Source of the DNA: an uncultured Lachnospiraceae bacterium
GTDB taxonomy: Bacteria > Bacillota > Clostridia > Lachnospirales > Lachnospiraceae
Reading direction: 5' to 3'
Length of the DNA: 64,000 nucleotides
Assembly (NCBI GenBank): GCA_947173495.1
Contig: CAMWFQ010000005.1
Span: 62,001 to 126,000, forward strand
Shown: piece after piece, positions 1 through 51,361 of the stretch
Layout: each line of letters opens with the position of its first letter
Position numbering within the stretch: position 1 is the stretch's first letter
Made by a program: the position numbers and the translations under genes
Notes under the pieces: generated by a model
Database searches by the model: none
Told to the model about the DNA's origin: nothing
Seen by the model: the letters and a program-made list of their open reading frames with translations, nothing else

Positions 1-24
1 AGTCAGGCAGCTTTTTGCAGTATA

Positions 25-72
25 CAGGCCTGTAAAGGGAAGTTTGCCGCAGAAGCAGCATGCGGGCCGCCC
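25..72 (-). repeat. Degenerate copy 1 of the dispersed hairpin repeat (module B only)
   Basis: caggcctgtaaagggaagtttgccgcagaagcagcatgcgggccgc closely matches caggcccgcataaggaaatttgctgctaacgcagcatgcgggccgc at 19031-19076; preceded by a T-run (ctttttgcag). Confidence 0.75.
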
Positions 73-96
73 GTGGGCATAAAAAAGGAACAGCAT

Positions 97-7161: not shown

Positions 7162-7180
7162 GAATAGTAAATAGATGAAT

Positions 7181-7268
7181 CGAGTAGGGAAGAGCTATCT
7201 TCCCCTACTCGTGCGCGGGGCGCACGTTGCGTCAGCAACAATTTCCTCTGTGCGCCCCTGCGCATAAA
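7181..7268 (+). repeat. Dispersed hairpin repeat copy 2 (full: module A + module B)
   Basis: cgagtagggaaga gcta tcttcccctactcg followed by gcgcggggcgcac-gttgcgtcagcaac-aatttcctct-gtgcgcccctgcgca. Confidence 0.9.
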
Positions 7269-7269
7269 A

Positions 7270-7298
7270 GAACCGGCCCATAAAAAGGCCGGCTTTTA
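7270..7298. terminator. Bidirectional intrinsic terminator between the gerW region and rpmB
   Basis: aaccggcc cataaaaa ggccggctttt. Confidence 0.75.
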
Positions 7299-9760: not shown

Positions 9761-9766
9761 AAAAAA

Positions 9767-9854
9767 CGAGTAGGGAAGAGCTATCTTCCCCTACTCGCGT
9801 GCGGGGCGCACGTTGCGTCAGCAATAACTTCATCTGTGCGCCCCTGCGCATAAA
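9767..9854 (+). repeat. Dispersed hairpin repeat copy 3 (full)
   Basis: Near-identical to copy 2: cgagtagggaagagctatcttcccctactcg then ggggcgcacgttgcgtcagcaataacttcatctgtgcgcccctgcgcat. Confidence 0.9.
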
Positions 9855-9858
9855 AAAT

Positions 9859-9946
9859 CAAGTAGGGAAGAGTTATCTTCCCCTGCTTGCCGCGCGCCCC
9901 ATGTGCCGCTTTAGCGGCATACTTCTTCTGCATGGGGCTGCGCATA
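9859..9946 (+). repeat. Dispersed hairpin repeat copy 4 (full, tandem with copy 3)
   Basis: caagtagggaagagttatcttcccctgcttg (paired change G-C to A-T in stem A); gccccatg-tgccgctttagcggca-tacttcttct-gcatggggc. Confidence 0.9.
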
Positions 9947-9974
9947 AAAAGGACGGAATGCCCGTCCTTTTTGC
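9946..9974. terminator. Intrinsic terminator
   Basis: aaaaaggacgg aatgc ccgtcctttttg. Confidence 0.75.
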
Positions 9975-10028
9975 GTGAATGGAAATGTAGAAATCATATC
10001 CAGTTGTTATAGTTATGAGGAATGCCAG

Positions 10029-18983: not shown

Positions 18984-19025
18984 GGATCTGGCTTACATTC
19001 ATTAACTGTAAGCCGGATCTTTTTT
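18984..19025 (+). terminator. Intrinsic terminator
   Basis: ggatctggcttaca ttcattaac tgtaagccggatcttttt. Confidence 0.85.
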
Positions 19026-19113
19026 ATGCGCAGGCCCGCATAAGGAAATTTGCTGCTAACGCAGCATGCGGGCCGCACGGCGAGTAGGGGAAGATAAATC
19101 TTCCCTCCTCGAT
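19026..19113 (-). repeat. Dispersed hairpin repeat copy 5 (full)
   Basis: atgcgcaggcccgcat-aaggaaatt-tgctgctaacgcagc-atgcgggccgcacgg then cgagtaggggaagataaatcttccctcctcg. Confidence 0.9.
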
Positions 19114-19114
19114 T

Positions 19115-19199
19115 GTGCAGGGGCACCCAGAGGAAAAATGTCAGCAGAAGCTGACGGGTGCCCGGGCGCGAGTAGGGGAGAAAAGCATCCCCTACTCGA
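19115..19199 (-). repeat. Dispersed hairpin repeat copy 6 (full, tandem)
   Basis: gtgcaggggcaccc-agaggaaaaat-gtcagcagaagctgac-gggtgcccgggcgcgagtaggggagaaaagcatcccctactcg. Confidence 0.9.
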
Positions 19200-19200
19200 T

Positions 19201-19283
19201 TGCGCAGGCCCGCATAAGGAAATTTGTTGCTTACGCAGCATGCGCCCCGCGCGCGAGCAGGGAGAAAGCCTTCCCTGCTCGAT
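19201..19283 (-). repeat. Dispersed hairpin repeat copy 7 (full, tandem; mixed outer-stem arms)
   Basis: tgcgcaggcccgcataaggaaatttgttgcttacgcagcatgcgccccgcgcgcgagcagggagaaagccttccctgctcg. Confidence 0.9.
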
Positions 19284-19295
19284 TTCCCTGCCTGA

Positions 19296-48418: not shown

Positions 48419-48452
48419 TTTTGATTCATATCCTTTTCGTAATATTTTGAAT

Positions 48453-48538
48453 CGAGTAGGGAAGATTTATCTTCCACTACTCGCCGCGCGGCCCGCATGC
48501 TGCTTCAGCAGCAAACTTCCTTTTGCGGGCCTGCGCAT
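48453..48538 (+). repeat. Dispersed hairpin repeat copy 10 (full)
   Basis: cgagtagggaagatttatcttccactactcg then gcgcggcccgca-tgctgcttcagcagca-aacttccttt-tgcgggcctgcgca. Confidence 0.9.
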
Positions 48539-48545
48539 TAAATTT

Positions 48546-48572
48546 AAAGCTTTCTGCTCCGGCAGAAAGCTT
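48546..48572 (-). terminator. Intrinsic terminator of sepF
   Basis: Minus strand aagctttctgc cgga gcagaaagcttt aaattt. Confidence 0.75.
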
Positions 48573-51294: not shown

Positions 51295-51297
51295 GAA

Positions 51298-51328
51298 CAA
51301 ACGTCCCGGTTGATCCGGGACGTTTATG
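51298..51328. terminator. Intrinsic terminator (downstream of the minus-strand P-loop gene)
   Basis: aaacgtcccgg ttga tccgggacgttt. Confidence 0.8.
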
Positions 51329-51361
51329 AAATTCAACTGCATACTCGGAAATTGCCAGTCC

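Follow-up and report, generated by a model that had tools for sequence, protein, structure and literature searches.

A repeat of approximately 84-88 nt is found directly behind intrinsic terminators in the genome of an uncultured Lachnospiraceae bacterium, with a fixed polarity relative to the terminator. The repeat is most probably a short non-autonomous mobile element that inserts in one orientation after intrinsic terminators. The window, which is the whole stretch of 64,000 nucleotides that was analyzed, corresponds to positions 62001-126000 of contig C5 in a genome of 4.58 Mb and 52 contigs. We aligned copies of the repeat taken from 30 loci in this genome.

Along the upstream transcript, the order is terminator hairpin, T-run, AT, GCRCA, stem A, GCGC, stem B, and GATT. 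The unit itself comprises the part from GCRCA to GATT, and its full 3' end is CTCGATT. Stem A is an imperfect hairpin that contains a purine-rich bulge as well as a bulged A, and stem B is a second hairpin. Stem A begins at the first base of the unit, and no obvious guide lies 5' of the two hairpins. The ends of the unit, GCRCA and GATT, are not inverted repeats. In the alignment, GTAG is present only as paired bases within stem B, and no unpaired GTAG/CGTC tag is seen at the foot of a hairpin. The 5' flank has T at -1 in 94/95 and A at -2 in 88/95. The structure is supported by covariation in 101 copies from other species. Compensatory changes occur at 24 of the 28 pairs, and the covariation score is 0.382, compared with at most 0.063 for slid partners; this evidence comes mostly from stem A, because the copies were aligned to the model and the loci had been found by means of stem B. 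In some copies, the 3' end is kept and the 5' part is missing, and copies without stem B also exist. Neither the window nor five other loci gave an Rfam match for the repeat.

Related structures are seen near and apart from the repeat. A second repeat has the stem A architecture (GGATGCGCACGG..AAGGAAA..GCGC), with the palindrome TATAGTAAACGACA..TGTCGTTTACTATAA in place of stem B. It is found at L186 and L187 and in the window's genome at C1:66659-66745 and C2:149068-149163, and is probably a sister family with a different end. Free-standing stem B-like hairpins (for example, CGGGCAGGG..CCCTGCCCGATT) occur without stem A in G000 at about C1:28050, C1:347850, C2:19470, and C18:51810. The recurrent hairpin TATCATAGGAAATTGCGTCCTATGATA adjoins several copies (L061, L078, and upstream of C1:112232-112311) and has the appearance of a palindromic repeat of its own.

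The copies in the window and their terminators are listed below, with covariance-model matches in bits. Features given without a model match, and the neighbors of copies 3 and 9, were read from the sequence.

48448..48540, (-): copy 10, stem A of the GGCCCGCA class plus stem B, GCGCA...CTCGATT, 113 bits
48541..48575, (-): sepF terminator hairpin with a degenerate T-tract, immediately 5' of copy 10
7176..7267, (-): copy 2, GGGGCGCAC class, 96.4 bits
7268..7297, (-): terminator CCGGCCTTTTTATGGGCCGGTTCTTTTAT touching copy 2
9854..9947, (-): copy 4, GCCCCATG class, which opens an array, 94.5 bits
9948..9980 (junction from 9946), (-): terminator AAAGGACGGGCATTCCGTCCTTTTTAT touching copy 4
9762..9853, (-): copy 3, GGGGCGCAC class, right behind stem B and TTTTTTAT of copy 4, 84.8 bits
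9722..9760, (-): remnant of a further unit (GCGCAGGCCCGCATAAAATTTGCCGCTTTGCAGC) in the copy 3/4 array
18984..19025, (+): terminator GATCTGGCTTAC..GTAAGCCGGATCTTTTTTAT touching the copy 5 array
19024..19116, (+): copy 5, GGCCCGCA class, 107.8 bits
19117..19200, (+): middle unit of the copy 5 array, GGGGCACCC class, stem B GAGTAGGGGAGAAAAGCATCCCCTACTCGATT
19198..19286, (+): third unit of the copy 5 array, GGCCCGCA class, 79.8 bits
40286..40379, (-): copy 9, CGGGCATCC class, touching a GC hairpin with a poor T-run, 56.9 bits
38986..39065, (+): copy 8, weak or decayed, no terminator upstream, 32.8 bits
51255..51296, (-): copy 11, truncated, under the model threshold
51297..51330, (-): terminator ACGTCCCGGATCAACCGGGACGTTTGTTCAT touching copy 11
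21..73, (+): copy 1, truncated, stem A only, partial model match

The original prediction had a terminator T-tract running straight into the repeat in most cases. This is seen at nearly all of the places that it named, and the junctions of hairpin, T-run, and AT/GCGCA are clean at 7268-7297, 9946-9980, and 18986-19025. Copy 10 and its adjoining hairpin are present as claimed. The product of the gene at this terminator is SepF (Pfam PF04472), and the hairpin AAGCTTTCTGC..GCAGAAAGCTT is followed by TAAATTTA, a degenerate T-tract. The junction GTTTGTTCAT/GCACACGG at copy 11 is weaker than the clean ones. A T-run before copy 1 had also been claimed; it is weak evidence, since this copy is a truncated remnant. 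The GC hairpin at copy 9 was found, and copy 8 does lack a terminator.

Adjacency to terminators was measured in a 1.19 Mb sample of the window's genome, consisting of contigs 1, 2, 4, 11, and 18 and the window. Genes in the sample were called by a simple ORF heuristic, terminators were predicted, and model E-values are rough. The strict test required a hairpin of -6 kcal/mol or lower and at least five T in eight positions, ending at the repeat boundary. A strict terminator lies at the 5' boundary of 40 of the 65 copies that stand first in an array, and of 28 of the 36 strong ones (at least 70 bits). At matched distances downstream of gene 3' ends, 18 of 500 control positions (3.6%) passed the test (Fisher p ~3e-30 for the enrichment), as did 11 of 500 random intergenic positions (2.2%). 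The far end of the copies on the opposite strand passed in only 2 of 82 cases (2.4%). The original prediction, which named a genome-wide lack of enrichment or orientation bias as its refutation, is not refuted by these results, and the polarity relative to the terminator is fixed. The hairpin mostly lies 4-8 nt from the boundary, with a mode of 5 nt. About a quarter to a third of the copies lack a strong hairpin, though many of these still stand behind a T-run. Other Lachnospiraceae show the same pattern, with terminators at 71 of 95 first units versus 17 of 800 random positions (2.1%). Copies also lie just behind the terminators of T-box leaders (L031, L039, and L046), an FMN riboswitch (L278), and tRNA genes (L047, L076, L084, and L204). 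Several occupy a 5' leader, where they separate a regulatory terminator from the gene under its control.

Occupancy depends on both the hairpin and the T-run. Among T4AT sites, a hairpin is present at 27 of 28 occupied ones versus 54 of 363 unoccupied intergenic ones (15%) and 295 of 1427 in coding sequence. A plain preference for T-runs irrespective of the hairpin is rejected by this comparison. In the 1.19 Mb sample, 25 of 171 strong predicted terminators (approximately 15%) are occupied, and AT directly follows the T-run at 20 of these 25 compared with 29 of the 146 unoccupied ones. Of the two parts, the T-run is probably the harder to dispense with, because some copies in other species that lack a strong hairpin still come after a T-run and A.

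Orthologous terminators can stand alone. At sepF, a hairpin and T-run are found at the equivalent place with no repeat in all 20 of the relatives examined. Four other species (L040 and its near-identical counterparts) carry the repeat at a second site, which is empty in the window's genome. Only one empty site, with approximately 90% identity, is close enough to be read at the level of single bases. In this case, a copy behind TTTTTTAT in COE1 (G435) has an empty counterpart in G459, with flanks that are 88-91% identical. The empty site reads CCTGCATTTTTTAT/TGCGTATTC, and the filled site reads CCTGCATTTTTTAT/GCACA...CTCGATT/TACGTATTC. This is a clean gain of 84 bp after hairpin-T6-AT with no target duplication, and the AT is already present in the empty site. 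At an FMN riboswitch site in relatives (L315 and L316), a terminator whose counterpart in COE1 is filled carries short relics (GTGCACAGACGCGGAAAGGAAGTCGATT and similar), in which the start and sometimes the end are kept and the middle is gone. The enrichment over controls, the empty orthologous terminators, the precise empty site, and the copies at riboswitch and tRNA terminators strongly support the targeting of insertion to the terminator hairpin and T-tract, which was one of the two roles offered in the original prediction.

Copies also stand head-to-tail in arrays. The junction GATT/GCRCA is exact in 44 of 48 cases. Array neighbors share a stem A class in 11 of the 48 cases; approximately 24 of the remaining 37 are of clearly different class, and the others precede only a remnant of the start motif. 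In the copy 5 array, the class changes from GGCCCGCA to GGGGCACCC and back to GGCCCGCA. Such mixed classes argue against tandem duplication, and we infer that the arrays arise by repeated insertion behind stem B. Stem B with GATT again has the form of a hairpin and T's, and it apparently serves as a substitute target; this would account for arrays that are head-to-tail and mixed in class. Copies that lack a whole downstream unit often have GCACA or GCGCA straight after GATT (e.g., L017, L077, L084, L088, and L104), which looks like the leading bases of an otherwise missing unit.

The repeat is abundant and patchily distributed. With the covariance model, at least 150 copies are detected in the window's genome, and the copy number within one genus ranges from this value through 70, 27, and a few to 0 in several members. 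Seven of 197 genomes of the order carry the repeat. The stem B pattern, run against 85,488 species genomes, yielded 90 stretches, and the titles of nearly all of them name Lachnospiraceae or uncultured gut bacteria related to these. DNA matching gave no copy in phage, plasmid, or viral collections. No earlier description was found in the literature searched, which did not include preprints or most subscription journals. Several kb around one repeat (L040, L058, L066, and L095) agree to >99% among four assemblies that differ considerably in size, which suggests transfer or assembly mixing. An integrative element was considered for this shared block and rejected, the flanking genes being widespread in the order.

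According to the proposed mechanism, the target would be the end of the terminator T-run, in which a hairpin, T4-8, and AT are followed by GCRCA, and no target duplication would be made. New units would land behind old ones at stem B plus GATT, giving arrays of the same polarity with different stem classes. A trans-acting enzyme would presumably recognize the folded single strand, either as single-stranded DNA in an HUH-like manner or as RNA. Candidates for this enzyme were sought by protein family. Neither Y1 (PF01797) nor Y2 (PF04986) HUH transposases were found in the window's genome, which is 97% complete, or in the copy-bearing genomes G021, G013, and G459. A Y1/IS200-like transposase as the mobilizer is rejected: it is absent here, and the genes in some copy-rich relatives have other ends and do not track copy number. 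A Y2 transposase, present in 4 of 22 genomes with no relation to copy number, is rejected as well. The window's genome has no group II maturase and only two RVT_1 proteins, one beside Cas1 and the other lacking a maturase domain. The former is a fusion of a reverse transcriptase and a primase-polymerase (AEP) that adjoins Cas1 outside the window (G000:C5:210640-214260, L121), which suggests RNA spacer acquisition in a CRISPR system. The latter is a 404-aa reverse transcriptase (G000:C12:103816-107475, L122) beside small phage-like-looking genes, and its nearest named models are well under their cut-offs. An autonomous relative of greater length with the ends of the element was not present in the loci examined. 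The mover may have been lost, may lie in the missing 3% of the assembly, or may be of an undescribed kind.

Two explanations do without a targeted mobile element. A host element that aids 3'-end formation, transcript stability, or insulation of transcription units is consistent with the placement behind terminators, the fixed polarity, and the conserved RNA-like structure. However, lone terminators at sepF in 20/20 relatives, the absence of copies from several members of the genus, and the copies between riboswitch or T-box attenuators and the controlled genes render it very unlikely. The repeat is most probably not a conserved 3'-end or insulator element. Terminators stand without it, its copy number is patchy, and copies occur in 5' leaders; therefore, a host role in 3'-end formation or insulation, the other proposal of the original prediction, finds no support. 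A secondary effect on the host is possible. The alternative is that insertion occurs anywhere and only insertions behind terminators are tolerated. General reasoning favors such a filter, as insertions in genes would be lost and those at the rear of terminators would be the least harmful. Nevertheless, other intergenic positions at equal distance from genes rarely lie behind a terminator (the 3.6% control), and the hairpin spacing of mostly 4-8 nt, the AT flank, and the hairpin dependence at equal T-runs need a targeting rule. Survivor bias is disfavored on these grounds and is extremely improbable.

Within the preferred reading of a terminator-targeted mobile element, several routes can be envisaged. 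One such mechanism is transposition of single-stranded DNA, with an HUH enzyme of the IS200/IS605, REP-transposase, or rolling-circle type; TTAT would be the 5' target, GATT the right end, and stems A and B the end hairpins. This route would explain the two subterminal imperfect hairpins, the lack of inverted repeats, and the lack of target duplication, and it agrees with the fixed short 5' flank and the exact right-end/left-end junctions in arrays. Set against it are the missing Y1 and Y2 transposases in the four genomes searched and the position of stem A at the very start of the unit, with no unpaired guide or GTAG tag evident 5' of it. We regard it as a serious possibility that falls somewhat short of even chances. 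An RNA-copying route is rather unlikely. Here, a trans-acting reverse transcriptase would insert structured RNA behind terminator hairpins, as for group IIC introns, which insert after intrinsic terminators (PMC4424553), and the repeat would be a stripped-down passenger. Copies that have the 3' end and lack the 5' part point in this direction. When three odd pairs are set aside, the strand that matches the upstream transcript shows 75 G-U pairs versus 38 A-C mismatches, although the alignment is biased toward this outcome. However, the only reverse transcriptases in the genome are the two described above, the repeat does not start with GTGYG, Rfam gave no match in the window or a subset of loci, and copies without stem B exist. 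It is similarly doubtful that a minimal element, perhaps one that no known transposase family serves specifically, seeks out the places where transcription ends. In that case, recognition of the hairpin, T-run, and AT would take place either on a folded single strand or where the transcript pauses or terminates, and the terminator-like hairpin of the element would let it colonize itself. If true, this would be a mode of transposition tied to termination, with an undescribed enzyme.

The repeat shares features with several classes of small mobile DNA. Like REP/BIME sequences and the REPINs moved by TnpA-REP, it is high-copy, intergenic, hairpin-forming, non-autonomous, clustered, and patchy between related genomes. 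Unlike them, it consists of two different hairpins in a fixed head-to-tail order, is targeted to terminators, and has no unpaired GTAG/CGTC tag, and its genome has no Y1 transposase. PATEs, the non-autonomous derivatives of IS200/IS605, also have subterminal imperfect palindromes, lack inverted repeats and target duplication, and insert 3' of a short T-rich motif. However, the repeat has no evident guide 5' of its hairpins, and no cognate TnpA with matching ends was found. MITEs such as Correia elements are likewise short, high-copy, intergenic, and non-autonomous, but the repeat lacks the terminal inverted repeats and the target duplication. It differs from rolling-circle elements (IS91/Helitron-like) in that the window's genome has no Y2 HUH transposase.

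A review (PMC4424553) describes group IIC introns as inserting at intrinsic terminator motifs by structure and not by a long homing site (Robart et al. 2007, cited there). The repeat resembles these introns in lying directly behind intrinsic terminators in one orientation. However, it measures approximately 85 nt, as opposed to a whole ribozyme plus reverse transcriptase. It has no ribozyme domains, starts with GCRCA instead of GTGYG, has no Rfam match, and makes head-to-tail arrays in a genome devoid of group II maturases. By these features, the repeat fits neither the HUH-type elements nor the group IIC introns: its genome has no Y1 or Y2 transposase and no group II maturase, a guide or GTAG tag is not evident, and an Rfam match is lacking. 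Strongly covarying, conserved hairpins behind terminators in such genomes can be selfish DNA and not regulatory RNA, which calls for caution. The copies provide a ready data set on how terminator structure is read as a landing site. They also mark a safe-harbor strategy for mobile DNA and point to an enzyme still to be found. Among known mobile elements, it is, to our knowledge, the group IIC introns that aim at intrinsic terminators; here, a protein-less element of approximately 85 nt hits terminators at high copy number across Lachnospiraceae.
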